A stretch of DNA of 45,762 bases, from the NCBI GenBank assembly GCA_025933775.1, contig JAICZH010000015.1:1-45762 (forward strand). Reading direction: 5' to 3'. Origin of the DNA: Chitinophagaceae bacterium. GTDB lineage: Bacteria > Bacteroidota > Bacteroidia > Chitinophagales > Chitinophagaceae. Under the pieces are notes generated by a model. That model saw only the letters and a program-made list of their open reading frames with translations. It was not told where the DNA came from and ran no database searches. The translations under genes were made by a program, and so were the position numbers. Position 1 is the stretch's first letter; each line of letters starts with the position of its first letter. This document shows, piece by piece, positions 24,919 to 43,390 of the stretch.

Positions 24919-27900
24919 TTATTGTGCCAACGAAATTCTTACCTGCACGCCGGCACGTGTATCAACCGTAGGTGGTGATGACGAAATGTATGGATTTACC
25001 CTTCTTTGTTCAAAATATAATTTTACTTGCACACGGTTGTTTATGTAATAATTTATAGTAGGATTTATTGTAATTTCTTTGCTGCCATTGGTTGCAAAGG
25101 CGCTGTTTTGATCGAGCCGGCTATTGGAGCTTACATTATCCCGCAACGAAAAATCGAGCCGGAACTGAATTTCATTATCTAGTTTTTTACTATCCTTTTT
25201 CGTGAAAGGCACTTTAAATGGAAGCTTTAAACCGCGTTTGCGGAAGCCACCGCCAAATGTAAATTCTGTTGACCTTACTTCGCTAAGCTGATAATCAATA
25301 AGGCTTAGGCTTAGCTGACGTTGTTTGGTATAATCAAACTTCAGGCTCAGATTATTGGTAAAGGTCATATCAATTCCCAGCAACGGGGCAAACTGTTCCT
25401 GTATAGTGATGTTGGGAACTAAAAAGAAAGGAATGTAATTGTTGTTTCCGGCAGTAGTATCAATAAACGAAGGATAGCCGAATCTTGAAACATCCTGGTA
25501 GTCTAATGCCGAAGTGAAACTGTTCATTCCTAGACTTCCGTTATACGCATGAGTGAGCGAAAAATTGGAAAATATTTTATCAAGGCCTGGTATTCTATTT
25601 AACCCGTTGTAGGTAATTCGCCAGTTTGGCTTAGGTAAAATATTTTTAAAGGGATTGGATTTGAGATTGGAATTATTTTGTTTTATCAATGAAACTTTAG
25701 TGGGGTCCTGGCCTGTATATGCTGCAATGAATGCGGGAACTAAAACATCAACCGAATATCTTCCATATCCCAAAGCGTAACCATCGTTAGTAATGGGGTT
25801 GCCTTGCAATTTATTATAAGTATTTAACAGGCCTAATCTTTTTGATAATATTTCCCGGTAATTTTCAAATTTCAAAAAAGTAACCGATATCTGGTTAGGG
25901 TCAAACTTTTCAAAAAGCGTATTAAATGCAATGTAACTTACATTGAAGCCACCTTGAATGTAGGGGCTTAAATGAGAAAAATGATTTCCTGTTCCGGTGG
26001 TGTCTTTAAAAGTTTCCGAATAATTTTTTGAAAAAGTTTTATCAATATTTATATCAATCGTTAAATCCGAAACCGGCTCCAACTGTGCAGACGCGGAAAT
26101 TTTTTGATCAAAGCTCTGAACAAATAAATCATTAAAATTTGAGTCCCGGGTTATAAGCCCTCTTCGGGCAGCTTTGTTCAGCCAGTTGCTATCGGGTTGT
26201 TTTCCTAAAATAAAATCAAAACCCGGCGACATACTTCTGAAATCCTCTCCTAAAATTTGTGTGCTATCAGTATAACCTGGCAACCGCGTATGACTGTTTT
26301 GCGAAACCGTTGCATTGATAGATTTAATGCTGGTGAGTAATTTGCCAAAAAATCTTGCCGCTCCATTTACTTCAGGAAGCGCATTATTATTTTTTGGTTT
26401 TACTGTTACATTATTTTTTTGATTATTTTTTTTTGCTGCGGAAGTATCTGTTTCTTTTCGTTGCCGTGGTTGATCAATAGCACGCAGCCATTTTGATTTA
26501 TTATAAAGTTTTGTAAAATCAAGCTGAAGATTGGCTTCTTCCTGCTGCCCGTTTTCTAAAAAGTTACCTAAGTTTACTGCAAGCCTTGAAGCGCCAATCC
26601 ACTGGTAATTGGCCGTGTATCCTAAACGTAACGTTGTCCAATCGGTTAACGGAAATTTATTGAGCGGTACATTGTACGAAAAATTAATAGCCTGTGTAAA
26701 TACAGTATTACGGCCACCTGAAAAGAAATTTCTTAATACAGTATCTTCCTTTGCTTTTGTGTCCAGTCTTCCATACGGCTCATCTACCCTGGCATTGTTG
26801 AGTGCTGTATAATCAATATTGAAAGAATGGGTAAGATCCCATCGTACAATATAATTTCTGTCGAAAGTAAAATACTTATCAAACGTTTCGGGAATTACAT
26901 ATTTATCTTCTCCAATGCTTCTTGGTTTTATTACTCCGAATTGCCTGAAAATATCTGCTCTAAAACTAATTTGCGAAGGAAGGGGATTAATATTAAAATC
27001 TTTAATCAGATCGAACCAATGTGTTTTTGTTTTTTTAAATAATTTTTTAAAAGGTTCAAAATATTTTGGCTGAGGTGTATAATTATATCCAATGCCACCC
27101 CGCTGTTTTGTAACATTATTATATTCAATAAGCGGATTGTGAGCTTCTGTTTTGGTATAAGAATAACTAAGGTCGATATTTTCAATATCCCATGGCTTTG
27201 GTTTTTTATTATTCGTTCGATTTTTATGAACGTTGGTAAAAGTGATGGTTTTGGTGGAAACAAAGTCAACTGCATTTTTTCTGATGGAATCTCTTTCTCC
27301 TCTTGGCGCCTGTTTTAGCTTTTGTTTTAAAGTAATATCCATGTCATAAGGATCATATTCAGGAGTACTTACTGCTTCTGAATAGCTTGCATAAAAAGGA
27401 ATTGATAATGCCGCTTTGCTTGGCAAGAGTTTACCAAGTTCCAGGTTAGTAGCTGCATCAAATTGTAAAAAATAATCTTTAAATCTTTCATCTACTCGTT
27501 GTTCCAAAGTTCCGAAACCATTGCTGTGTGTATTAGCAGAAAGAGAGATGGTGCCAAGGTCTGAAAGGTTTGCATCCACCCGGGCTAATGAAGCCCAGCC
27601 GCCTTTTTCATCGAGAGAAGAAAGACGTAATTCATTAAACCAAAGCTCACCACATGCAGAGCCACCACTTACATTTTTTACCCCCATTAAAATGCCTGTT
27701 ACCTGGCCAAGATTTGGATTACCGATAATCGAATAGGTTTGCCCATTGGTCTGTAATTGCGAGTATAAAGTATTAATAGGATAGGTAGATAAATTTCTTG
27801 TGTTCTTTAGTTTAGTAAGCGCATCCAGGTCGAGATCGAGGTTATTTTGTTGTATCCAAAGCGTATCATTGTATTCCTTACTGTCGGGATTGAACCCGCT

Positions 27901-30900
27901 ATTTAAAGGAGTAAGTTTTAATGGAATTTTTACTTCATAATAATTGGAAACAAAATCACTTCCTATTCTTATTATTGCTACAAGGTCATTATTATTGAGT
28001 ACGCTTTGTGGATTTCTTTCAGCATGAATGTACATTTGCAGTTTGCGAAACTGTCTTAAATCTCTGTTAGCAAAGGTTTGAAAAACGGCCTTGCCATCAT
28101 TTTGATTAAGCCCGCAGAATTGTAATGTAAGTGATTGTTCATTTTCTAATAAGGTTACTCCGTTGTTGCTTTGTGTTTGTACCCTTTTTATAGCATCCGG
28201 TGTACGATAGGGTAAGGGTGATCTCTTATCATTCTCTTCAATATTTACAGCGCCCACATTAAAGTCGTTCGTTACTTCCGGACTATAATTACCTGTGGTA
28301 TCTAATTTAAATTGAAACTTTCTCCACGTGTTTCTTACCAATGCAAGTTTTCCAAACCGCACTACTACACTATCATCAAAGCCGGTTAAGAACATTCGTA
28401 TAAATCGTATTGATTTAAAATCGGGAATATTTCCGATTTTTTTATTATAACCTTCTATTGGAATTCTAAGCTGGTACCATGTTTCAGGCCGGGACGTACC
28501 ATCAACGAGTTTTACAGTAACCACTTTTTTATCTACAATAAAATTTTGTCCAATATTCATCTCCGGATTTGTGGGAGGCTTCAGATCAACAGCATATTGA
28601 AAATATTCTTCTGTTTCATTAAGCGTATTATCGCGGTTTAAATCTTCCTGGTCAGGATACAGAGTGGCAGCAGTGGAAAATTGTGAATTATTATCAGCAA
28701 TAGGAGAATTGCCCTGCGGACCATTATAATTTTTATAACGATTTAAAATATTCGCATTTTCTGCGTCAAGATCATTGCCGCGATAATAGTGATAATTATC
28801 AGAAGAAGGATCGGCCAAAGCTTCTTTATAAGCTTCCGAACCCGTACCAAAATTAGTTGCGAGTACATTTAAATAATCATTTCTTCTTTTTGAAACCTCT
28901 GCGCTGTCTGTTAATCCATCAAAACCCACATCCTGGTAAGGCCTGTCTTTGGGATCATTGCTAAATGCATTGGTAACCTGTGTTGGATTTCGAGGCACCA
29001 CTCCCCAAATAGATGTATCAACTTGTGCTGGAAGATTGGGTGTAGGAAGCCCGTTTTCATAAAATCTTCTTGAATCTTTTAATACATCTTCTGAAATATT
29101 ACCAAGGTTTATATAAAATTTACCGCCATTACTTGTAGGATTATTTATAAAAGGATCTTGTATCCAACACTCGATATATTCTACATTGGCGCTTTCAAAA
29201 TCAGTTTGGTCAATGCTTCTCATGAGGCCACCCCACCGTTTAGAAGGATTAAGCAATTTACCTGATGCAGTAACATCTGCTGCAGAAGCATCATAGTTAT
29301 ATGGTCCCCTATCAGAAGGATAATAAGCAAGATCAAAAGTGATTAACTGGTTCTGGCCAAAGTCGGTTGTAATTTGGGGAAAAATTTCAGTTTGAGAAAT
29401 AGCGCGTACTCTTGGATCGGAAAGTGCAGTTTTATTTCCCCTCAAAGGATTATTTATATTTTTAGGATCTTGCAAAGTAGGTTCTATTTGATACCATGCA
29501 ATTTTTGCCCTGTTTTTTCCATAATCTAAATTATCATTGTTGGCGGCTTCAGGAAATAAAAGATTACCGCTTGAATCGGTAGCGCCAAAGGGAGTGGATG
29601 CCAAAGCCCAGCTAATGGGAGGGAAGCGAAGATCAATATCACTTTTGCTGCCTTCGAAATCATCAATGTACACAACACCATTACTTCCTTTTCCTATTTG
29701 GGGAGCATGGCCTGGTTTTAAATAAGCAGCCTCGGCATAAGCATTTATTGCCGATGGCGCAGTAGTCTTATAAAATGGAAGTTTATCTAATAGCTTAGTT
29801 AATCGTGGAATATCTTTATGATAATTTCCATCCAAGCCAAACATAGTATTTCGTATGGGATCTTCTCCATAATCAACCTTAGTAAAGAAAGGCCTTTCAC
29901 TTAATCGCACAATGGTGCCGCCAATAGTTAATTGCTCTTTGGCTGTATTTTTAGCCTGATAATCTAAGCGAAGGCCTAAATAACTTTTTTGTTGAAGTCC
30001 ATAAGCTGCGTTATTTTCAAAATTAACTTGTACCGGCACTCCTGCATTTATAATTGCCTGGTTAATTATTTTAATGGTTCCAAGATCGTAGTTAATGGTG
30101 TAATCTACATTCTCATGCAGTGTTTGACCTCCGGCACTTACTGTTACCGAGCCGGGGGGAATATTGTATCCGATGCTTATATCTGATGACGAAGATGTTT
30201 TTGCCGATCCTTGTAATACAAACCTGTCAAGATTGGGAAATTGTTGCTGTGCCACCACTTTTATTGAATCATATAATGGATAATACAAACTATCTTTTGC
30301 AAGTGTTGTATCACTAAAAACTTTTGGAGCAAGATCGCGCCCAAATGGTTCTAATAGCGGGAAAATAACCCGGCTGTATTGAGGAAGAACGGTATATCCC
30401 TGTACAAAATCAAAAACACCATCGGGTTGTGGATCATTTTGATTATTGAGCCTGTCAAGATTTTCTAAAGTTAAAATAGGAGTGCCCAAATTAAGATCGC
30501 CGAAAGGAAGGTATCTTTTTGCTCCCAGCCCTGGTTGTTCATATAATACATTCAACATAAAATCCTGTGGATCGAGTGTTCCAAAACCTACACTGTACAC
30601 GTTTTTCATCATTAATTGCCATATAGGAAGATTAGGACGTTGTGAAGTGGCTTTTAATAATTTTAAAAATAAAATCTTTTGATTTGCAGAAGTAGAGTCA
30701 GGCGGTACATCCTGCGAAAATTCACCTACCTGGTAAATTCTTCCATTGTAAGAATATTGATATGCAACCGCAAGCACTTCGTCGGGCTGTAATGGCTGGC
30801 TTAAAGATAAAAAACCCACTTTTGCATTGTAGATATATTGACTGGAATCTAATTTCCGTGCAAAAGTTTTTTCAAAATCCTGAACAGGGCTTAATCCCAT

Positions 30901-32133
30901 TGCATTTTGCAATTGGTTGGTGATAAGAGCTCCGTCTCTGCTATTAGGATTGCTGATAATATCTCTGTATTCAGAATTGGTATTATTATCCGGCAAACTT
31001 CCGGTAACTGTAAATGGATGGTAAGGATTGTTTTCGCCTAAATCCATAAGTCCTACAATTTCTCTCGCATTGGTGGTAGATCCATTTTTATTGGTTACCC
31101 ATACTTCCAATCTTAAAATATTTACAGGAGTGATTACTGCCGGTAAATTGCTCATCACTTTATTGTAATTATTTTTAAAATATTGGCCCAATAAAAAATG
31201 CCGGTTCTCCTCATAATCATCAGCTTTAAATTCAAATTGCTGCGCCGCGCTTCCTCCTTGCAAATTTACAGATTGCCTCTGGGATCTCTGATCGGCTAAA
31301 ATTCCGGTTATAAAAAGTTTTCCGAATTGTAACTGCGTTTTTAATCCAAATAAAGATTGTGCTCCTGGAATTAATGTACTTCTTGATGGGAATGAAACGT
31401 TTCCTGCCTCGAAGCGTTTTAATATTTCATCATCCTTTCCGGTGTAATCCAGTTTTAATTGGTTAGTAAAATCAAAGTTGGCAAGTGTATTATAACTGAT
31501 TGGAAATTTAAGTTTGTCGCCTATGTTGGCGTTTATATTTAGTTGGGTGGCCATGTCAAAATCGAGACCTCCATTTTTTCTGGCTCTTTCCGCAAGAGTT
31601 GGGTTTTTAATGTTTTGCCCTTGATATCCTGCTGTAATATCAACATTTCCCTGTGGCTCTATAATAATTTTTCCATTACCAAATAGCCGGTTAAAAAGAT
31701 TGTCGTAAACATTAAGCTTGGGCTTTATCTGGCCCCGGTTCAATATATTAAGCGTGTTGGCACGTTTTCTAAAATAATCTGTTTGGGCTTTTTGGCTTTC
31801 TATCTCCATAAATTCATCGTAAGTATAAGTTGTAGGAGTACGATAATATTTATTGCCGATCTTTTCATAAACGGTATATCGTTTTGTTGCGGGATCGTAA
31901 GCAATAGAGTCTGTAATGTTAGATGGCTTGGCTAAATCAAAAGGGCTTCTTTGGTTTGAAAAAAAATCTCCTCGTGTATCATAAATTGGGTAAGGAAGAG
32001 AATCATTAAAACGAAGTGAGGTGGTATCTTGTGCGAAGGTTTTATTGACGCTTATAAATGAAAATATAATCCCGCAAATGCAAGCCACAATCAACCCAAA
32101 AAAATTAGGAGCCAGATTTTTTTTAAACAACAT
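24919..32133 (-). CDS. sprA: Cell surface protein SprA (type IX secretion translocon)
   Basis: SprA is the giant outer-membrane barrel through which type IX secretion substrates cross, and is required for gliding in flavobacteria. The 2404-residue length fits the family. A signal peptide (about 1-35, ending KTFAQ) is followed by repeated beta-barrel and plug-like segments, including AYAEAAYLKPGHAPQIGKG with YIDDFEGSKSDIDL, and GELWFNELRLSSLDEKGGWA, both typical of the family. The protein ends in a barrel strand RAGVQVRISLAQ. It lies 27 nt after ruvA, so the two are probably cotranscribed, an arrangement common in the phylum. The other T9SS genes are elsewhere. No internal stop or shift was seen. 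Confidence 0.96.
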   Translation of the reverse strand: MLFKKNLAPNFFGLIVACICGIIFSFISVNKTFAQDTTSLRFNDSLPYPIYDTRGDFFSNQRSPFDLAKPSNITDSIAYDPATKRYTVYEKIGNKYYRTPTTYTYDEFMEIESQKAQTDYFRKRANTLNILNRGQIKPKLNVYDNLFNRLFGNGKIIIEPQGNVDITAGYQGQNIKNPTLAERARKNGGLDFDMATQLNINANIGDKLKFPISYNTLANFDFTNQLKLDYTGKDDEILKRFEAGNVSFPSRSTLIPGAQSLFGLKTQLQFGKLFITGILADQRSQRQSVNLQGGSAAQQFEFKADDYEENRHFLLGQYFKNNYNKVMSNLPAVITPVNILRLEVWVTNKNGSTTNAREIVGLMDLGENNPYHPFTVTGSLPDNNTNSEYRDIISNPNSRDGALITNQLQNAMGLSPVQDFEKTFARKLDSSQYIYNAKVGFLSLSQPLQPDEVLAVAYQYSYNGRIYQVGEFSQDVPPDSTSANQKILFLKLLKATSQRPNLPIWQLMMKNVYSVGFGTLDPQDFMLNVLYEQPGLGAKRYLPFGDLNLGTPILTLENLDRLNNQNDPQPDGVFDFVQGYTVLPQYSRVIFPLLEPFGRDLAPKVFSDTTLAKDSLYYPLYDSIKVVAQQQFPNLDRFVLQGSAKTSSSSDISIGYNIPPGSVTVSAGGQTLHENVDYTINYDLGTIKIINQAIINAGVPVQVNFENNAAYGLQQKSYLGLRLDYQAKNTAKEQLTIGGTIVRLSERPFFTKVDYGEDPIRNTMFGLDGNYHKDIPRLTKLLDKLPFYKTTAPSAINAYAEAAYLKPGHAPQIGKGSNGVVYIDDFEGSKSDIDLRFPPISWALASTPFGATDSSGNLLFPEAANNDNLDYGKNRAKIAWYQIEPTLQDPKNINNPLRGNKTALSDPRVRAISQTEIFPQITTDFGQNQLITFDLAYYPSDRGPYNYDASAADVTASGKLLNPSKRWGGLMRSIDQTDFESANVEYIECWIQDPFINNPTSNGGKFYINLGNISEDVLKDSRRFYENGLPTPNLPAQVDTSIWGVVPRNPTQVTNAFSNDPKDRPYQDVGFDGLTDSAEVSKRRNDYLNVLATNFGTGSEAYKEALADPSSDNYHYYRGNDLDAENANILNRYKNYNGPQGNSPIADNNSQFSTAATLYPDQEDLNRDNTLNETEEYFQYAVDLKPPTNPEMNIGQNFIVDKKVVTVKLVDGTSRPETWYQLRIPIEGYNKKIGNIPDFKSIRFIRMFLTGFDDSVVVRFGKLALVRNTWRKFQFKLDTTGNYSPEVTNDFNVGAVNIEENDKRSPLPYRTPDAIKRVQTQSNNGVTLLENEQSLTLQFCGLNQNDGKAVFQTFANRDLRQFRKLQMYIHAERNPQSVLNNNDLVAIIRIGSDFVSNYYEVKIPLKLTPLNSGFNPDSKEYNDTLWIQQNNLDLDLDALTKLKNTRNLSTYPINTLYSQLQTNGQTYSIIGNPNLGQVTGILMGVKNVSGGSACGELWFNELRLSSLDEKGGWASLARVDANLSDLGTISLSANTHSNGFGTLEQRVDERFKDYFLQFDAATNLELGKLLPSKAALSIPFYASYSEAVSTPEYDPYDMDITLKQKLKQAPRGERDSIRKNAVDFVSTKTITFTNVHKNRTNNKKPKPWDIENIDLSYSYTKTEAHNPLIEYNNVTKQRGGIGYNYTPQPKYFEPFKKLFKKTKTHWFDLIKDFNINPLPSQISFRADIFRQFGVIKPRSIGEDKYVIPETFDKYFTFDRNYIVRWDLTHSFNIDYTALNNARVDEPYGRLDTKAKEDTVLRNFFSGGRNTVFTQAINFSYNVPLNKFPLTDWTTLRLGYTANYQWIGASRLAVNLGNFLENGQQEEANLQLDFTKLYNKSKWLRAIDQPRQRKETDTSAAKKNNQKNNVTVKPKNNNALPEVNGAARFFGKLLTSIKSINATVSQNSHTRLPGYTDSTQILGEDFRSMSPGFDFILGKQPDSNWLNKAARRGLITRDSNFNDLFVQSFDQKISASAQLEPVSDLTIDINIDKTFSKNYSETFKDTTGTGNHFSHLSPYIQGGFNVSYIAFNTLFEKFDPNQISVTFLKFENYREILSKRLGLLNTYNKLQGNPITNDGYALGYGRYSVDVLVPAFIAAYTGQDPTKVSLIKQNNSNLKSNPFKNILPKPNWRITYNGLNRIPGLDKIFSNFSLTHAYNGSLGMNSFTSALDYQDVSRFGYPSFIDTTAGNNNYIPFFLVPNITIQEQFAPLLGIDMTFTNNLSLKFDYTKQRQLSLSLIDYQLSEVRSTEFTFGGGFRKRGLKLPFKVPFTKKDSKKLDNEIQFRLDFSLRDNVSSNSRLDQNSAFATNGSKEITINPTINYYINNRVQVKLYFEQRRVNPYISSSPPTVDTRAGVQVRISLAQ

Positions 32134-35174: not shown

Positions 35175-35186
35175 TTTCTATATTTG
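35157..35186 (+). promoter_or_regulatory. ffs (SRP RNA) promoter
   Basis: TTG at 35157-35159 and TATATTTG at 35179-35186 are separated by 19 nt, as expected for the Bacteroidota housekeeping promoter, and the -7 box ends 4 nt before the closing stem of the SRP RNA. Confidence 0.75.
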
Positions 35187-35190
35187 CGCC

Positions 35191-35291
35191 GGCAAGTCTT
35201 ATACGGCCAGCTCCTGCAGAACTCCCCCAGGATCGGAAGGTAGCAAGGGTATGTGGTTGAGCGGTGCGATGTAAGTAACTTGCCTTTTTTT
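35191..35291 (+). ncRNA. ffs: Signal recognition particle RNA (4.5S-type)
   Basis: The small SRP RNA binds Ffh and directs signal-bearing ribosomes to the membrane. The ends pair as GGCAAGT (35191-35197) with ACTTGCC (35278-35284). The apical domain has the conserved symmetric-loop sequence in two parts, CCCAGGATCGGAAGG and TAGCAAGGGT, including the GGAA-type tetraloop. The roughly 94-nt length fits the bacterial small SRP class. A T-run directly after the closing stem acts as terminator. It is flanked by an ordinary promoter and is not part of a protein gene. Confidence 0.92.
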
Positions 35292-36122: not shown

Positions 36123-36530
36123 TTAATTTTTTCTTTTACGCGGCTCATTTGAATTTGGTTCATTCATAATCTCTTCCAAAGTTTTTAATTTCTCATCAGG
36201 CTTTTTTTTGATGTACATAGTAAACTCTTTATACACAGAAGGATTTGTTTTCAGCGTAGCTTTTATGGTTACTTTTTCTTTTTTAAAACCCGGATCAATC
36301 CAGAGGCTGTTGCCAAAAAATTTTCCGTCTGAAGAAGTAAAATTTATATCAGTAGTGTCCAACGGAATGAACCTGCCATTGGATAACTTTCCATCAATAT
36401 TTATATAATTGTACGTCCCTTTTTTTAAACTGTCGGTGTATAAATGCACATACATATTGTCAATCTTCTGCGCTTTTGTTTTTACCGAAAACATAAATAA
36501 TAAAAATGAAAATAATAAAATCCGCTTCAT
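36123..36530 (-). CDS. Small exported protein of unknown function
   Basis: The family is not recognised. The 135-residue product starts with a clear signal peptide (MKRILLFSFLLFMFSVKTKAQ). A single beta-rich domain follows, with DNMYVHLYTDSLKKGTYNYI and KKEKVTIKATLKTNPSVYKE; the latter resembles Ig-like folds. A lysine/arginine/glutamate-rich tail ends it. No cysteines or catalytic residues are evident. It faces the fsa gene 51 nt away and is divergent from the trp leader. It is probably periplasmic or surface-exposed. Confidence 0.7.
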   Translation of the reverse strand: MKRILLFSFLLFMFSVKTKAQKIDNMYVHLYTDSLKKGTYNYINIDGKLSNGRFIPLDTTDINFTSSDGKFFGNSLWIDPGFKKEKVTIKATLKTNPSVYKEFTMYIKKKPDEKLKTLEEIMNEPNSNEPRKRKN

Positions 36531-36623
36531 TGAAATATTTTGTTATTAGATTTAAAAATGTATAACCAGGTTGCCTTGTTGTTTTTCATCAGACGATAAA
36601 TTACAGAAGAAGTAAAATAAAAA

Positions 36624-36655
36624 TTTGTTATTTAAATTTTTTCATTACATCTTTG
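36624..36655 (+). promoter_or_regulatory. Candidate trp operon promoter
   Basis: TTTG at 36624-36627 and CATCTTTG at 36648-36655 (one mismatch to TAnnTTTG) are 20 nt apart. The start of transcription would then fall a few bases before the leader peptide ATG at 36664. Supported only by consensus match and position. Confidence 0.4.
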
Positions 36656-36663
36656 CTGCTCAA

Positions 36664-36711
36664 ATGAAAATTAATAATACATATAACAGTTGGTGGCACT
36701 CAATCTCCTGA
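36664..36711 (+). CDS. trpL: trp operon leader peptide
   Basis: A 15-codon ORF, MKINNTYNSWWHSIS, contains two adjacent Trp codons at 36691-36696. Their position matches the classical leader peptides where ribosome stalling at Trp codons reports charged tRNA-Trp. The stop lies within the first downstream hairpin, and the ORF is followed by competing stems ending in a terminator just before trpE. Two adjacent Trp codons in 15 are very unlikely by chance in this AT-rich DNA. It is too short for ordinary gene finders. Confidence 0.85.
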   Translation: MKINNTYNSWWHSIS

Positions 36712-36780
36712 TTGTGCCGTAAAGCTTTATTTGTATTTTTATAAAATAAATTATTTCCCGGCACATAGCCGGGTTTTTTA
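36695..36780 (+). promoter_or_regulatory. trp transcription attenuator
   Basis: Three mutually exclusive pairings can be drawn. 1:2 pairs GGCAC and AATC (36695-36705, two bases bulged) with GATT and GTGCC (36710-36718). 2:3 pairs TGTGCCG (36713-36719) with CGGCACA (36759-36765), seven perfect pairs. 3:4 pairs CCCGGC (36757-36762) with GCCGGG (36768-36773) and is followed by TTTTTT, an intrinsic terminator. Strand 2 is shared by the first two pairings, and strand 3 by the last two. A ribosome stalled at the Trp codons would cover strand 1, allow 2:3 and prevent termination; rapid translation would allow 1:2 and 3:4. The run ends 3 nt before the trpE ATG. Confidence 0.85.
36757..36779 (+). terminator. 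Attenuator terminator hairpin before trpE
   Basis: The six-base GC-only stem (CCCGGC/GCCGGG) with a 5-nt loop and six T residues is an ordinary intrinsic terminator, but it lies upstream of the operon, immediately before trpE. Confidence 0.9.
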
Positions 36781-36782
36781 TT

Positions 36783-38201
36783 ATGAAGAAAATAGATTTA
36801 ACAACTACTTACAAAAAATTATTGGCGGATGTTTATACACCCGTTGGAATTTATCTGCGGCTGCGCGATCGTTTTCGCGATACTATTTTGCTCGAAAGCA
36901 CCGACTTTCATGTAGGTGAAAATAGTTTTTCTATCATTGGCATCAATGCCATTGCAGGAATTGAAATAAGTAATTACGATGAAATTGAATTCAAACTTCC
37001 ATCGCATAATATTGAAAAAATTGCAATTACAAAAGATACCAATGTTACCGATGAGCTTTGGAAATTTATGCAGCATTTTAATGTAATTGAAAATGCCAAG
37101 CCTCCTGTAGGCAAGGCCCAGGGCTTATTTGGCTATACTACTTATGATGCCATACAGTTTTTTGAAGATATAAAATTCACATCTCACAAATCCCAATTCA
37201 CACCGCAGATTCCATTAATACGTTATCGCCTCTATCAATATGTTATTGTTATTAATCATTTTAAAGATGAATTATTTATTTGCGAAAATCATATAAATGG
37301 AATTGAAAGTGATGTAGAAATAATTGAGAGCCTTATAAAGAGTAAAGACGTTCCTGCGTATCCGTTTTCTTCTTTGCAAAATGAAACATCGCCGTTAACC
37401 AATGATGATTACATCGAGATGGTAAAAAAAGGAATTAATGCCTGTGCAAGAGGCGATGTTTTTCAGGTGGTATTGAGTCGTAAGTTTATGCAAAAATTTT
37501 CCGGCGATGAATTTAATGTGTATCGCTCACTAAGAAATATAAACCCAAGCCCATATCTTTTTTATTTTGATTATGGTGATTATCGTTTGTTTGGCAGCAG
37601 TCCCGAAAGCCAGTTGATTGTGCAAAATCATACTGCAGTGGTACATCCTATTGCCGGCACTTTCAGGCGCACGGGTAATGATGCAGTTGACGAAGAGCTT
37701 GCAGAAAAATTAGCAAAAGATAAAAAAGAAAATGCAGAACATGTGATGTTGGTTGATCTTGCACGAAATGATTTGAGCCGTTCTTGCCATGATGTAAAAG
37801 TTACCCGTTTTTGTGAAGTGCAATATTTTTCGCACGTAATTCATTTAGTAAGCGAAGTAAAAGGTAAGGTTGATGAAAATACCAATCCATTTAATTTATT
37901 GGGAACTACTTTTCCTGCAGGCACATTAAGCGGAGCGCCGAAGTATAAAGCGATGCAGCTTATTGATGCATTTGAAAAACAACCGAGAGGATATTATGGA
38001 GGTTGTATTGGCTTCGTTGGTTTTAATGAGAGCATTAACCATGCAATTATGATACGAACTTTTTTGAGTAAAGAAAACAATCTTATTTACCAGGCCGGAG
38101 CAGGAATTGTATTTGCATCTAACCCAGCAAGTGAGTTGCAGGAAGTAACTAATAAATTGAATGCGCTTACATTGGCAATTACTTCAGCAGAAAAAATTTA
38201 G
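36783..38201 (+). CDS. trpE: Anthranilate synthase component I
   Basis: TrpE makes anthranilate from chorismate using ammonia from TrpG. The 472-residue product has the N-terminal Trp-feedback domain, with LLESTDFHVGENSFSIIGI in the region of the Trp-binding LLES motif (about 38-56). The chorismate domain has SPYLFYFDYGDYRLFGSSPE (about 258-277), HPIAGTFRRTGND, HVMLVDLARNDLSR and TFPAGTLSGAPK. All are intact, so feedback inhibition by Trp is likely in addition to attenuation. The ATG is the first good start after the attenuator. trpG follows 3 nt later. The pabB alternative is less likely because of the operon context. Confidence 0.96.
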   Translation: MKKIDLTTTYKKLLADVYTPVGIYLRLRDRFRDTILLESTDFHVGENSFSIIGINAIAGIEISNYDEIEFKLPSHNIEKIAITKDTNVTDELWKFMQHFNVIENAKPPVGKAQGLFGYTTYDAIQFFEDIKFTSHKSQFTPQIPLIRYRLYQYVIVINHFKDELFICENHINGIESDVEIIESLIKSKDVPAYPFSSLQNETSPLTNDDYIEMVKKGINACARGDVFQVVLSRKFMQKFSGDEFNVYRSLRNINPSPYLFYFDYGDYRLFGSSPESQLIVQNHTAVVHPIAGTFRRTGNDAVDEELAEKLAKDKKENAEHVMLVDLARNDLSRSCHDVKVTRFCEVQYFSHVIHLVSEVKGKVDENTNPFNLLGTTFPAGTLSGAPKYKAMQLIDAFEKQPRGYYGGCIGFVGFNESINHAIMIRTFLSKENNLIYQAGAGIVFASNPASELQEVTNKLNALTLAITSAEKI

Positions 38202-38204
38202 AAA

Positions 38205-38786
38205 ATGAAAATTTTAATTTTTGATAATTATGATTCTTTCACTTACAACCTGGTGCATGTGGTAGAAAAAATAATTCATGATAAAGTAGATGTATTTCGA
38301 AATGATAAAATTTCTCTTGAAAAAATAAATGAATACGATAAAATAATTTTATCACCAGGTCCCGGTCTTCCTTTCGAATCAGGATTACTATTGCCACTTA
38401 TAAAAAAATATGCATCTTCCAAATCCATACTGGGTGTATGTTTGGGGCAGCAGGCAATTGGCGAAGCATTTGGCGGAAGCCTTATTAATTTAAGCACCGT
38501 GTATCATGGAGTGGCTACAAAAATTAAAGTAAATCCAAAAAGAATAAAATCAAAAAATGATATTTTTAATTCATTGAGTGATGAACTGGAAGTTGGCCGT
38601 TATCATTCATGGATTGTAAGTGATAAAAATTTTCCGAAAGAACTTGAAGTAACTGCCGAAGATGAAAATGGTTACATCATGGGTTTGCGTCATAAAACTT
38701 TTGATGTGCAGGGTGTACAGTTTCATCCTGAAAGTGTATTAACGCCAATGGGCGAGCAAATGATTAAAAACTGGTTAGATGTCTGA
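38205..38786 (+). CDS. trpG: Anthranilate synthase component II (glutamine amidotransferase)
   Basis: The glutaminase subunit that supplies ammonia to TrpE. The 193-residue class I amidotransferase has LSPGPGLPFESG, nucleophile C79 in GVCLGQQAIG, and H174/E176 in VQFHPESV, a full triad. The enzyme of this type is often shared with PabB (folate), but here it lies 3 nt after trpE in a Trp-regulated operon. A gap of about 100 nt without an obvious promoter follows before trpD. Confidence 0.95.
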   Translation: MKILIFDNYDSFTYNLVHVVEKIIHDKVDVFRNDKISLEKINEYDKIILSPGPGLPFESGLLLPLIKKYASSKSILGVCLGQQAIGEAFGGSLINLSTVYHGVATKIKVNPKRIKSKNDIFNSLSDELEVGRYHSWIVSDKNFPKELEVTAEDENGYIMGLRHKTFDVQGVQFHPESVLTPMGEQMIKNWLDV

Positions 38787-38887
38787 ACTGGGATTTATAG
38801 GATGTTTGAGGAGATATTTGGATTCATTTATTAAATATGTATTATGGCTGATTTTAAATATGGGGAAATAATAAAAAATAATTGACA

Positions 38888-39880
38888 GTGAGAGAAATTC
38901 TTACATATTTATTTGAACATAAAACTTTATCAAGAGATAAAGCAAAGGAAATATTGGTAAATATTTCCAAAGGAATTTATTCTGAAGCTGAGATTGTTTC
39001 TTTCATAACGGTGTACCTTATGCGAAGTATTACCATTCCTGAGTTACTTGGCTTTCGCGATGCATTGATTGAATTGTGTGTGCCTGTAAACCTAAAGCCA
39101 TTCAGCGTTCTGGACATTGTAGGCACCGGCGGCGATGGAAAAAATACTTTTAATATTTCTACATTAAGTTGTTTTATTGTTGCAGGAACCGGGCAAAAGA
39201 TTGCGAAGCATGGCAATTATGGCGCTTCATCAATAAGCGGAGCAAGCAATGTAATGGAAATGCATGGTTATAAATTTTCATCTGATAATAAAAAATTATT
39301 GAATGAAGTTGATAAAGCAAATATTTGTTTTATGCATGCACCTTTATTTCATCCAGCATTAAAAGTTGTGGGCGCCGTAAGAAAAAATTTAGGTGTACGT
39401 ACATTTTTTAATATGCTTGGGCCAATGGTAAATCCAGCGCTGCCCGAAGTGCAGGTTATTGGTGTGTATAATCTGGAGATGGCCCGCATTTATTCTTATC
39501 TGCTGCAGCAATCAAATGCAAAATTTACAATCGTTCACAGCCTCGATGGTTATGATGAAATTTCATTAACCGGCGATGCAAAAGTGATTACCAATAATGG
39601 AGAAAAAATTTATGCTGCAGAAGATTTAGGAAAAAGAATGGTAAGCCCAGAAGATATTCATGGCGGCAACTCAACAGAAGAAGCCGCGAAAATATTTTTG
39701 AAAATTTTAAAAGGCGAAGGAAGCTGGGCGCAAAATGCAGTAGTAATCGCAAATGCAGCAGTGGCGCTGTTTGCCACCGGAAATTTCCCTGATTACGAAC
39801 GTTGTTATGAGTTAGCTGTAGAAAGTTTGGAGAGTGGAAAAGCCTATCAGTCATTTGAAAAATTAATAAATCTTCAATGA
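38888..39880 (+). CDS. trpD: Anthranilate phosphoribosyltransferase
   Basis: Transfers phosphoribosyl from PRPP to anthranilate. The protein (330 residues from the chosen start) has the glycine-rich PRPP motif DIVGTGGDGKNTFNIST, KHGNYGASSISGASNVME and NMLGPMVNPA. No ATG fits. A stop codon directly precedes a TTG at 38882, and GTG at 38888 gives MREILTYLFEHKTLSR, which matches the usual beginning of the family, so GTG is preferred. The stop overlaps the trpC ATG (ATGA), indicating translational coupling. Confidence 0.94.
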   Translation: MREILTYLFEHKTLSRDKAKEILVNISKGIYSEAEIVSFITVYLMRSITIPELLGFRDALIELCVPVNLKPFSVLDIVGTGGDGKNTFNISTLSCFIVAGTGQKIAKHGNYGASSISGASNVMEMHGYKFSSDNKKLLNEVDKANICFMHAPLFHPALKVVGAVRKNLGVRTFFNMLGPMVNPALPEVQVIGVYNLEMARIYSYLLQQSNAKFTIVHSLDGYDEISLTGDAKVITNNGEKIYAAEDLGKRMVSPEDIHGGNSTEEAAKIFLKILKGEGSWAQNAVVIANAAVALFATGNFPDYERCYELAVESLESGKAYQSFEKLINLQ

Positions 39881-40659
39881 ATATTCTTGATACGATAATT
39901 GCAAAAAAGAAAATGGAAGTGGCAGAAAGAAAAAAAAATAAAAGTATTTCTGAATTGGGAAAAGGACCATTTTTTAAAAATGAAACGTTATCTTTTAAAG
40001 ATTATTTATTAAGAGAAGATAAAACAGGTATCATTGCTGAGTTCAAAAGAAGATCGCCATCAAAAGGAATTATAAACGATACATCATCTGTTGCTGAAGT
40101 AACAACCGCTTATGCGAAATATGGAGCCAGCGCCATTTCTATTCTTACTGATGAAAAATTTTTTGGCGGTTCATTGAATGATTTGTTGGAAGCAACAATA
40201 AATGAAGTTCCGTTATTGAGAAAAGATTTTATTATTGACGAATACCAATTAATGGAATCGAAGGCTTATGGCGCCGAAGTAATTTTGTTGATTGCGGCGT
40301 GCCTTACTAAAGATGAAGTAAAAGATTTATCTTCTTTTGCAAAAAAAATAGGTTTGAATGTATTGCTCGAGATTCATAACGAAACCGAGCTGGAGCATAT
40401 TTGTAATGATGTAGATGTGGTGGGAGTTAACAATCGTGATTTAAAAAGTTTCACTGTTGACATCAATCGTTCTTTAGCGCTGAGCAAAAAATTTCCTGCA
40501 GATAAAATAAAAATTTCAGAAAGCGGAATTGATAATATTGATTCAATAAAACTTTTAAAACAAAATGGATTTAAAGGTTTTTTAATTGGTGAAAAATTTA
40601 TGAAAGCGAAAAATCCCGGACTTGCATTTCAAAAATTTGTAGAAGAGTTAAATAAATAA
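39877..40659 (+). CDS. trpC: Indole-3-glycerol phosphate synthase
   Basis: Closes the indole ring from CdRP. The 260-residue TIM-barrel protein has IIAEFKRRSPSKG (catalytic Lys region), SILTDEKFFGGSLNDL, VPLLRKDFIIDEYQL, GVNNRDLKSFTVD and ISESGI near the end. It is a stand-alone TrpC; TrpF is a separate gene 60 nt downstream, unlike the enterobacterial fusion. The start overlaps the trpD stop. Confidence 0.96.
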   Translation: MNILDTIIAKKKMEVAERKKNKSISELGKGPFFKNETLSFKDYLLREDKTGIIAEFKRRSPSKGIINDTSSVAEVTTAYAKYGASAISILTDEKFFGGSLNDLLEATINEVPLLRKDFIIDEYQLMESKAYGAEVILLIAACLTKDEVKDLSSFAKKIGLNVLLEIHNETELEHICNDVDVVGVNNRDLKSFTVDINRSLALSKKFPADKIKISESGIDNIDSIKLLKQNGFKGFLIGEKFMKAKNPGLAFQKFVEELNK

Positions 40660-40719: not shown

Positions 40720-41364
40720 ATGAAATTAAAAGTTTGTGGCATTACGCAGTTGAAGCAGTTGAAACAATTAGACAAGGTTGGTGTAAGCTACGCCGGGCTT
40801 ATCTTTTATCCATACTCCGAAAGATGCATGATTGAAAAATTAAAAGCAGAAGATATAAAACAATTGCAATTGTCATTACAAAAAGTTGGCGTGTTTGTAA
40901 ATGCAAAGGAAGATTTTATTATGAGCCAGGTTGAAAAATTTAATTTAGATGTTGTGCAATTGCATGGTGATGAAACGCCCGGATTTTGTAAGCTCATCAG
41001 CGATCGTGTTACCGTTTCAAAAGCTTTTAGAATTACACAAACCAATGAGCAAAATATTGACTGGATGCTGAGACCTTATGAAGAATTTTGTGATTATTAT
41101 CTTTTCGATACCAATCGTAAAAATGCTTATGGAGGAACCGGAGAAAAATTTGATTGGAAAATTTTGCAGCAAAATAAAATCAATAAACCATTTTTTTTAA
41201 GCGGCGGAATCGGCGACAATGATATTGAAAAACTCAAAACATTTGAACATCCTTTTTTCTATTGCATTGATATCAACAGCAGGGTGGAAGTTTCGCCCGG
41301 CGTAAAAGATATGAAAGCTGTAACACACATCGCAGAAGAATTAGTAGAAAAAAAATATAACTGA
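40720..41364 (+). CDS. trpF: Phosphoribosylanthranilate isomerase
   Basis: Isomerises PRA to CdRP, the step before TrpC. The 214-residue TIM-barrel protein has catalytic Cys in KVCGIT (residue 5), VQLHGDE, DTNRKNAYGGTGEKFDW, FFLSGGIGDNDIEKL and the C-terminal Asp in CIDINSRVEVSPGVKD. The 60-nt gap after trpC has no clear promoter, and trpB follows 12 nt later, so it is within one operon. Confidence 0.95.
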   Translation: MKLKVCGITQLKQLKQLDKVGVSYAGLIFYPYSERCMIEKLKAEDIKQLQLSLQKVGVFVNAKEDFIMSQVEKFNLDVVQLHGDETPGFCKLISDRVTVSKAFRITQTNEQNIDWMLRPYEEFCDYYLFDTNRKNAYGGTGEKFDWKILQQNKINKPFFLSGGIGDNDIEKLKTFEHPFFYCIDINSRVEVSPGVKDMKAVTHIAEELVEKKYN

Positions 41365-41376
41365 TCAAAGTAAATA

Positions 41377-42570
41377 ATGAAAACAAAAGAAATTTTTGAA
41401 GTGGATAAAAAAGGCTACTACGGCGAGTTTGGTGGCGCATATATTCCGGAGATGTTGCATAAAAATGTTGAACATCTCCAAAAAAATTATTTGAAAATTA
41501 TTAAGAAAAAAAATTTTAAAAAAGAATTTAATGCTTTATTAAAAGATTATGCCGGCAGGCCAACGCCATTATATTTTGCAAGGCGATTAAGTGAAAAATA
41601 TAACACAAACATTTATTTAAAACGTGAAGACCTTTGCCACACCGGCGCTCATAAAATTAATAACACTATCGGGCAAATTTTATTAGCGGAGTTGCTCGGT
41701 AAAAAAAGAATTATTGCAGAAACAGGAGCAGGCCAGCATGGCGTTGCTACTGCAACAGTTTGCGCATTGAAAGGGCTTGAATGCATTGTATATATGGGCG
41801 AAAAAGATATGGCACGGCAAGCGCCTAATGTAGCAAGAATGAAAATGCTGGGAGCAAAAGTAATACCGGCAACAAGCGGAAGCAAAACGCTGAAAGACGC
41901 TACCAATGAGGCTATCCGCGATTGGATTAATAACCCCGATGATACGCATTATATAATTGGAAGCGTGGTAGGCCCGCATCCATATCCTGATATGGTTGCG
42001 CGTTTTCAAAGTGTGATAAGTAAAGAAATTAAAAAACAATTAAAAGAAAAAACAGGAAATCAATTTCCTGATTTTGTGATTGCATGTGTTGGCGGAGGAA
42101 GCAATGCAGCGGGCGCTTTTTATCATTTCTTAAATCATAAATCTGTTGAGCTTATTGCTGTGGAAGCAGCCGGAAAAGGAATTGACAGCGGCATGAGCGC
42201 TGCCACCACTCAATTGGGCACCAACGGAATTTTGCATGGAAGTAAAAGCCTTGTGATGCAAACTGAAGATGGCCAGGTTATAGAGCCACACAGCATTTCA
42301 GCCGGCCTTGATTATCCCGGCATCGGCCCGATGCATGCCCATTTATTTACAAGCAAGCGCGCAACATTTATGAACGCAACAGATGAAGAAGCTTTGCAAT
42401 CTGCATTTGAATTGGCAAAGCTTGAAGGAATTATTCCTGCATTGGAATCGGCTCATGCACTTTATGTTTTAAATAAAATAAAATTTAAAAAAGATAATGT
42501 TGTAATTGTAAACCTGAGTGGAAGAGGAGATAAAGATATGGATACGTATATGAAATACATTTCGCTTTAG
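41377..42570 (+). CDS. trpB: Tryptophan synthase beta chain
   Basis: Condenses indole with serine using PLP. The 397-residue product has the PLP lysine K93 in HTGAHKINN, the phosphate-binding [21 protein letters not shown], and [14 protein letters not shown]. The length and the N-terminal [14 protein letters not shown] are those of TrpB1. A perfect-arm palindrome lies just after its stop, before trpA. Confidence 0.97.
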
Positions 42571-42622: not shown

Positions 42623-43390
42623 ATGAACAGGATAAAAAAATTATTTTCTGAAAAAAATAAAAACATTGTAAGCATTTATTTTACTGCAGGCTTTCCCTTG
42701 CCGAATGATACGCACATAATTCTTGAAGCATTACAAAAGCATGGAGCAGATTTGGTAGAAGTGGGCATGCCGTACAGCGATCCATTGGCCGACGGGCCTG
42801 TAATACAACAGAGCGATGCTGTTGCATTGCATAACGGGATCACGATTAAAAAACTTTTGGAACAATTGCATCAAATAAAAAATCGTATAACCATCCCCGT
42901 TATATTGATGGGATATTTAAATCCTGTGTTGCAATATGGCATAGAAAAATTTTGCAACGATGCACATGATGCAGGTGTGGATGGAATTATTTTGCCTGAT
43001 CTTCCTTTGCACGAATATGAAACTGAGTATAAAAAATTTTTTGAAAAAAATAATCTTGATTTTACATTTTTAATAACTCCTGAAACAAGTGAAAAAAGAA
43101 TCAGGAAAATTGATGCAATTAGCAAAGGTTTTATTTATGCAGTTTCATCTTCTTCCATTACCGGAATCAATAAAGATATAAATAAACAACAAAAATATTT
43201 TCAAAAGCTTGAAGAAATGAATCTTAAAAATCCAGTGCTGGTTGGGTTTGGAATAAAAGATAATAAAACATTTTCCGAAGCGTGCAAACACACAGCAGGC
43301 GCTATTATTGGCACTGCATATATTAAAGTCATAGAAAAAAGCGTTAATATTGATGAGGATACAAAAATATTTCTTAATTCAATTTTGTAG
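42623..43390 (+). CDS. trpA: Tryptophan synthase alpha chain
   Basis: Splits indole-3-glycerol phosphate to indole and glyceraldehyde-3-phosphate. The 255-residue product has catalytic E46 in LVEVGMPYSDP and D57 in DPLADGPV, corresponding to Glu49 and Asp60 of the Salmonella enzyme. TAGFPLPNDT, VDGIILPDLPLHEYE and the LVGFGIKD phosphate loop are also present. It is the last gene of the trp operon. No strong terminator was seen in the 66-nt gap to the next gene. Confidence 0.97.
   Translation: MNRIKKLFSEKNKNIVSIYFTAGFPLPNDTHIILEALQKHGADLVEVGMPYSDPLADGPVIQQSDAVALHNGITIKKLLEQLHQIKNRITIPVILMGYLNPVLQYGIEKFCNDAHDAGVDGIILPDLPLHEYETEYKKFFEKNNLDFTFLITPETSEKRIRKIDAISKGFIYAVSSSSITGINKDINKQQKYFQKLEEMNLKNPVLVGFGIKDNKTFSEACKHTAGAIIGTAYIKVIEKSVNIDEDTKIFLNSIL

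Follow-up and report, generated by a model that had tools for sequence, protein, structure and literature searches.

The trpEGDCFBA operon in the window, which is the whole 45,762-nt stretch of Chitinophagaceae DNA that was analysed, is very probably controlled by a classical ribosome-mediated transcription attenuator. This reading had already been put forward in the first-pass annotation, and it was upheld as the best one by the anatomy of the region, by the conservation of its Trp codons and by the co-variation of its stems. The genome holding the window comprises 3.25 Mb in 197 contigs. Sequence reading and NCBIfam profile matches placed the leader-to-terminator region (36664–36779) at the head of seven genes on the + strand. 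These were trpE, encoding anthranilate synthase component I (36783–38201; best match TIGR00564, 402.7 bits, under the cut-off of 517.7), trpG (38205–38786; TIGR00566), trpD (38882–39880; TIGR01245), trpC (39877–40659; NF001377), trpF (40720–41364; best match NF002298, under its cut-off), trpB (41377–42570; TIGR00263) and trpA (42623–43390; TIGR00262), the matches of trpG, trpD, trpC, trpB and trpA being over their cut-offs. TrpE was 49–85% identical to its counterparts in 12 aligned relatives. Elsewhere in the window, an ORF of 2404 aa was found at 24919–32133 on the - strand, and a Bacteroidales small SRP RNA was found by Rfam at 35183–35289 on the + strand (86.1 bits).

Anatomy of the leader and the proposed switch

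A leader peptide of 15 residues with tandem Trp codons had been claimed upstream of trpE, and the corresponding ORF, MKINNTYNSWWHSIS, was found at 36664–36711 on the + strand (15 codons, ATG at 36664, stop codon TGA at 36709–36711). Its two adjacent TGG codons occupy 36691–36693 and 36694–36696. The 1:2 hairpin (36695–36718; strand 1 at 36695–36705, strand 2 side at 36710–36718) starts inside the second Trp codon, as the claimed overlap required; it pairs GGCAC, a TC bulge and AATC with GATT GTGCC, and the energy for 36691–36719 was -10.1 kcal/mol. The antiterminator proved to be a perfect 7-bp helix between TGTGCCG (strand 2, 36713–36719) and CGGCACA (strand 3, 36759–36765), according to the fold and to helix counts. 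The 3:4 terminator hairpin at 36757–36773 is equally as described, with GC-only arms (CCCGGC at 36757–36762 and GCCGGG at 36768–36773), the loop ACATA and a T6 run at 36774–36779. The region before the trp operon combines a short ORF that carries tandem Trp codons, a 1:2 hairpin beginning at these codons, and mutually exclusive 2:3 and 3:4 pairings followed by a U run.

The fold of 36640–36800 had a z-score of -3.1, with 2 of 200 shuffles equally stable, and the part from the leader ATG to the T run had a z-score of -4.2 against 100 shuffles. When the RNA was folded without a ribosome, the 1:2 and 3:4 hairpins were formed. When it was masked up to 36706, so that strand 1 was covered, the antiterminator was the best structure (-17.5 kcal/mol), and when it was masked up to 36724, so that strand 2 was covered, the terminator was the best structure (-14.0 kcal/mol). 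From the coordinates and these masked folds, a ribosome positioned on the stop codon of the leader would reach strand 2 and one on the Trp codons would reach strand 1, the footprint length being that generally known for ribosomes.

In E. coli, ribosome stalling, its coupling to transcription and the resulting response to tryptophan form the established paradigm of trp attenuation. By analogy, transcription of the operon would start near 36660, and translation of the leader ORF would begin close to the RNA 5' end. When Trp-tRNA is ample, the ribosome would reach the UGA codon at 36709 and cover strand 2, whereupon the 3:4 hairpin would form and the RNA would end after about 120 nt. With scarce Trp-tRNA, the ribosome would stall on the two UGG codons and cover strand 1; strands 2 and 3 would then pair, the terminator would be blocked and the operon would be transcribed.

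The first-pass annotation had also put the end of the U run 3 nt from the trpE ATG and had described the terminator as abutting trpE. The distance was confirmed (T run to 36779, ATG at 36783), and the abutment is real at this locus; it is not conserved, since the gap ranged from 3 to 157 nt across 42 leaders of the family. An additional control of trpE translation by the terminator was considered, in which the 3:4 hairpin in read-through RNA would occlude the trpE start because 9 nt separate its 3' arm from the ATG. Besides the 3-nt distance in the window, this reading may draw on the gaps of 3–5 nt seen in 7 of the 42 leaders, namely those of six same-genus loci (L001, L003, L004, L005, L006 and L008) and of L024. 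However, among 15 same-genus loci, measured from the T run to the TrpE match, six had gaps of 3–5 nt, eight of 11–18 nt and one of 50 nt, while the leader, the strands and the T run were retained. Furthermore, at L204 in the same genome, a terminator that is not related to this one also adjoins the next ATG, so that abutment may reflect mere compactness. Such a role in translation is possible but was judged unlikely, and because the gap varies among relatives, it would not be a conserved part of the design.

At L204 (930–957, on contig C48), the hairpin and T run lead directly into the ATG of a 230-aa ORF, a putative endonuclease III; in this genome, terminators that adjoin start codons may be no rarity. 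At the same-genus locus with the 50-nt gap (L007), the T run is followed by a three-codon ORF, ATG TTG AAT TGA.

Conservation and co-variation among relatives

Relatives were found to retain the WW or WWW codons: all 30 trpE loci read and 73 of 79 named loci had them. The 30 loci were those among the matches listed, namely the window and 29 relatives (L001 and L003–L031), and the count does not include three genomes with trpE-level matches (G008, G020 and G051). In 26 of these loci, no more than 260 nt separated the WW or WWW ORF from the TrpE match downstream of it; in the remaining four, the ORF lay within 900 nt, at -287 (L016), -472 (L018), -351 (L030) and -577 (L028, where TrpE was matched only from residue 140); the shuffle control given below applies to the 400-nt range of the named loci and not to this 900-nt range.

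The 80 named loci were the best TrpE matches among at least 586 relatives, an uneven sample in which Chitinophagaceae-type records are foremost; those of Terrimonas or Flavihumibacter strains, L054 and L057, both have WWW leaders. It also includes records of Flavobacteriaceae, Chryseobacterium and Pedobacter as well as Cytophagales-type and Bacteroidales-type ones. At least 150 nt of upstream sequence was available for 79 of them (L091, with 5 nt, was left out). A WW ORF was present within 400 nt in 73 of the 79 and started with ATG in 72, whereas dinucleotide shuffles gave an ATG-started WW ORF in 19 of 1580 cases. Two of the 73 are doubtful: the ORF of L121 has a GTG start, and L086 was counted for an IWLWWG-type ORF while its nearer ORF reads NWSWRW. 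Six loci lacked a WW ORF over this distance: in L112 a WWW lies farther away, at -581; WLW occurs in L120 and, as judged by eye, also in L122; visual inspection gave WHW in L103 and a single Trp in L072; and L099 had none. The last of these belongs to a record titled Alphaproteobacteria bacterium MAG11; its TrpE is 53% identical, no Trp-rich leader ORF was seen within 900 nt, and the contig is possibly mis-binned.

The stems were compared in the 42 Chitinophagaceae-type leaders and, in closer detail, in 15 close sequences. The 42-leader set does not contain L025, L026 and L073 (terminator not clearly recognised by the script), L071 (the same record as L022), L072 (no WW ORF), L016, L018 and L028 (leader more than 260 nt away) and L029–L031 (outside the family). 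Strand 3 was found to co-vary with both strand 2 and strand 4, as would be expected of an attenuator. In the 42 leaders, the terminator arm started 83–100 nt past the leader ATG, and in 40 of them the best complement of strand 3 lay 12–18 nt past the Trp codons. This complement was better than in shuffles of the intervening DNA (p ≤ 0.05) in 25 of 42 leaders, where about 2 were expected, and no better at that threshold in the other 17. From leader to leader, strand 2 changed from GUGCCG and GUGUCG to CGGGGCU and CGGGGU, and strands 3 and 4 largely tracked it. Because strand 2 was confined to 9–30 nt past the Trp codons in this comparison, its positions there are not independent evidence; the result of 12–18 nt was obtained without such confinement.

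In the 15 close sequences, 93.3% of the cells of the 2:3 helix were paired, against 24–43% when the strands were slid by 1–3 columns, and both the covariation score and the number of double-change cells exceeded those of 500 of 500 shuffles. One C-G pair was replaced by U-A in three sequences, which are near relatives, so that a single event is possible. Strand 4 changed together with strand 3 in two of these three (L010 and L011), so that both partners there track the same base of strand 3; in L009, strand 4 did not track the change. Other counts on this set weigh against the 2:3 helix: a double change occurred in only 1 of 6 pairs (244 of 500 shuffles did as well), the pair-type count did not exceed that of the shuffles (455 of 500), and one pair failed in 6 of the 15 sequences. 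In the 3:4 helix, both sides had changed in 4 of 7 pairs across the 42 sequences. The top pair of the 1:2 hairpin showed a double change from C-G to G-C in 4 of the 15 sequences, likewise near relatives and possibly one event. RNAalifold predicted only the 1:2 hairpin and part of 3:4 from the alignment of 15 sequences (A2) and only 3:4 from that of 42 (A3). Since loop lengths differ, the terminator arms were out of register in these MAFFT alignments, and the helices were therefore counted separately.

These data also bear on two readings in which ribosome stalling plays no part. That the same terminator is driven by another Trp-sensing leader, a T-box or a TRAP-type protein-bound leader, is very improbable: nothing was seen that favours it, neither a T-box nor any other cis element reached its gathering score in the window, where the small SRP RNA was the sole Rfam match, and the Trp codons belong to the small number of columns that do not vary in the 42-sequence alignment. 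Even less probable is a chance terminator of an upstream unit with a spurious ORF and no regulatory role, for although AT-rich DNA commonly has short ORFs and T-rich hairpins and the nearest larger upstream ORF (36123–36530) lies on the opposite strand, chance is excluded by the conservation of the leader across relatives far beyond that in shuffles, by the co-variation of strands 2, 3 and 4 and by the narrow offsets from the Trp codons to strand 2 and from the leader ATG to the terminator.

Relation to known trp leaders

Attenuation in bacteria was reportedly the subject of an article by Lopatovskaya et al. in 2010. The first-pass annotation had suggested that the trp attenuator of the window extends the range of this mechanism to Bacteroidetes. 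This suggestion fails, because Rfam already holds RF01692, the "Bacteroidete tryptophan peptide leader RNA" (Bacteroid-trp), which according to Table 1 of Weinberg et al. 2010 (PMC2864571) originates there, and because attenuation in F. psychrophilum has already been inferred. For the latter species, the available parts of two reports describe a Bacteroid-trp element before the trp operon (PMC6414381) and clues to leader-peptide attenuation before amino-acid operons, with conserved elements at pheA and hisG (PMC9723704). These suspected attenuators resemble that of the window in their phylum and in the leader-peptide attenuation inferred for them, but they belong to another family than Chitinophagaceae, and the parts available deal neither with that family nor with the distance from promoter to leader. 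No article on leader-peptide attenuators of Chitinophaga was found among the open-access articles searched.

RF01692, with a gathering cut-off of 49 bits, did not match the window at that score, nor did it match 36500–36900 at E ≤ 5, the trp locus in a search of the same genome at E ≤ 10, or any of the 20 Chitinophagaceae-type loci scanned (L051–L070) at the cut-off. It matched 15 of the 80 named trp loci (L091 had no room for a match), whereas a WW leader ORF was present in 73 of 79, so that annotation by RF01692 misses most of these leaders. Among 198 sampled genomes of the phylum, 17 were matched, 15 of them over the cut-off and all in one family; the control genome of Bacteroides ihuae was matched as well. 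All 17 RF01692-matched loci that were read had a WWW leader ORF and a terminator with a T run, as in the window type, but the leader peptides are unlike, for example NNTWWWNNLRQTS as against NNTYNSWWHSIS or WWWHTNSxRGL.

A model, R1, was built from the 42 Chitinophagaceae-type leaders of the family to which the window belongs. Each of the 17 RF01692-matched loci was matched by it with E < 0.001; 16 scored higher than the best off-target match (27.6 bits), and one, L034, scored just below it (27.2 bits). Because R1 matched all of these loci, RF01692 and the window-type leader appear to belong to a single wider family. Among 147 genomes of the window's family, some of which had supplied leaders to R1, the model matched 104 at E ≤ 0.001 and 96 at E ≤ 1e-5. 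Under stricter filters, 43 of the 147 had no match, a count made irrespective of whether a trp operon is present. Away from the trp operon, R1 had two further matches in the window's own genome (E 2e-4 and 6e-4), and matches as weak as these can be false. The former, on contig C48, was rejected, as L204 holds only the terminator before the 230-aa ORF and no Trp leader; three similar weak matches were seen in other genomes (L205–L207).

The leader shares with E. coli trpL (RF00513, Trp_leader) the Trp codons at strand 1, the 1:2, 2:3 and 3:4 pairings, the T run and the same logic. It differs in that its terminator lies 3 nt from trpE and its 5' UTR is predicted to be 3–4 nt long, whereas E. coli trpL has a longer 5' UTR with a Shine-Dalgarno site. 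In a permissive search, RF00513 matched over the whole model with 27.4 bits (E 0.0014), below its gathering score of 41. PrrF (34.7 bits, cut-off 90), rseX (31, cut-off 50) and GadY (25, cut-off 45) were also returned by the permissive Rfam search and were rejected, all being under their cut-offs; the alignments of PrrF and rseX, both of which outscore Trp_leader, rest largely on the terminator and on AT-rich stretches.

A trp attenuator RNA, rnTrpL, is also present in Sinorhizobium meliloti, a member of a different phylum. In the available part of the report on it, rnTrpL is leaderless, its 5' end at the leader ATG being stated as known (PMC7298713), whereas the short 5' UTR of the window leader is predicted from promoter position only, although it recurs at his and phe leaders. 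Since a leaderless trp attenuator RNA is thus on record, the trait as such is not new.

Promoter placement and leaders of other operons

A candidate -33 element, TTTG, was recognised at 36624–36627 (+ strand) from the sequence and from the position profile of TTTG in the leaders. It is followed after 20 nt by a candidate -7 element, CATCTTTG, at 36648–36655 (+ strand), which has one mismatch to the consensus TAnnTTTG and ends 8 nt before the leader ATG. In the profile, TTTG peaked 35–36 nt before the ATG, 28 nt upstream of a second peak at 7–8 nt. In the available parts of the published work, the box of F. psychrophilum spans -12 to -5 (PMC9723704), and transcription in F. johnsoniae starts 4–5 nt past the box. 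With this spacing, the position of the box predicts a start at 36660–36661 and hence a 5' UTR of 3–4 nt.

The placement of the box recurs. TTTG ended 6–9 nt before the leader ATG in 36 of 43 Chitinophagaceae-type trp leaders, against 6.9% of 4300 shuffles (the set does not contain L016, L018, L028 and L072, missed by the first scan, the duplicate L071, and L019 and L052, with less than 45 nt upstream). By the same measure, 1 of 21 larger genes of the window, hand-picked from 45 ORFs, had TTTG 6–9 nt before its start, and with a motif stricter than that used for leaders, none of the 21 had it closer than 17 nt. In 113 leaders of the phylum, the nearest TTTG lay at 4–10 nt in 61, at 13–24 nt in 37 (many of them Flavobacteriaceae-type records) and farther away in 9; in 6 it was not found in 60 nt.

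Leaders of other amino-acid operons were also studied. In the window's own genome, a His-rich ORF, MKQTTHIHHHHFLPKGKLR, precedes hisG (L132, contig C179), and a Phe-rich ORF, MNHTKAYFFFYFSYYFKNSAGCFC, precedes pheA, the prephenate dehydratase gene (L153, contig C17). As raw counts, HHH ORFs were seen in 17 of 18 hisG loci read and Phe-rich ORFs in 16 of 18 pheA loci read, 20 loci having been returned for each gene, and terminators after the his and phe ORFs were recognised by eye. Of 28 ilvD loci returned, 17 were read, and none of these showed a credible Ile/Leu/Val-rich leader. The distance from TTTG to the ATG was 7–9 nt in 13 of the 17 hisG leaders and 17–19 nt in 3, while 1 had no TTTG; in the 16 pheA leaders it was 7–8 nt in 10 and 10–12 nt in 6.

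Three Bacteroidales-type loci (L082, L089 and L116) have a second short Trp-rich ORF, with the core INTIWLPWWGLL, followed by a hairpin and a T run. It stands in tandem before the WWW attenuator, its ATG lying 143–159 nt upstream of that of the WWW leader. R1 was searched in two of these loci and matched the tandem element weakly (E 0.003 in L089, 0.07 in L082). A degenerate DNA pattern for its IWLPWWG had no match in 296 genomes of the phylum. While the WWW leaders vary, the core is identical in all three loci, and the tandem ORF could therefore be a nascent-chain sensor.

Short 5' UTRs are uncommon in the phylum: about 3.7% are below 10 nt in B. thetaiotaomicron and, in the portions of the reports that were available, 87% exceed 10 nt in F. 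johnsoniae and 5.5% of F. psychrophilum transcripts are leaderless (PMC9723704). As 5' UTRs are mostly longer, the attenuators appear to form a class in which they are unusually short. It appears somewhat more probable than the contrary, judging from box positions, that in Chitinophagaceae, and in part of the phylum, the attenuators of the trp, his and phe operons use near-leaderless transcripts, with the ORF about 3–4 nt from the 5' end. The placement of a sigma-A type -7 box mostly 7–8 nt before the leader ATG in all three kinds of attenuator is possibly new.

Because the mechanism is textbook knowledge and its presence in the phylum is on record, the window locus alone adds one member to a known group. 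Its wider interest lies in the many leaders that RF01692 misses and in the way in which ribosomes would be loaded. For attenuation to work, a ribosome must be loaded early enough to race RNA polymerase, and in Bacteroidota this loading takes place without Shine-Dalgarno pairing; the available text of one study states that Bacteroidia ribosomes do not recognise Shine-Dalgarno sequences (PMC9976891). The recurrent distance from box to ATG predicts how Bacteroidota would load them in time, namely by near-leaderless initiation. If this is true, early, Shine-Dalgarno-independent ribosome loading would be a design rule of these attenuators in a phylum where ordinary mRNAs are mostly leadered.
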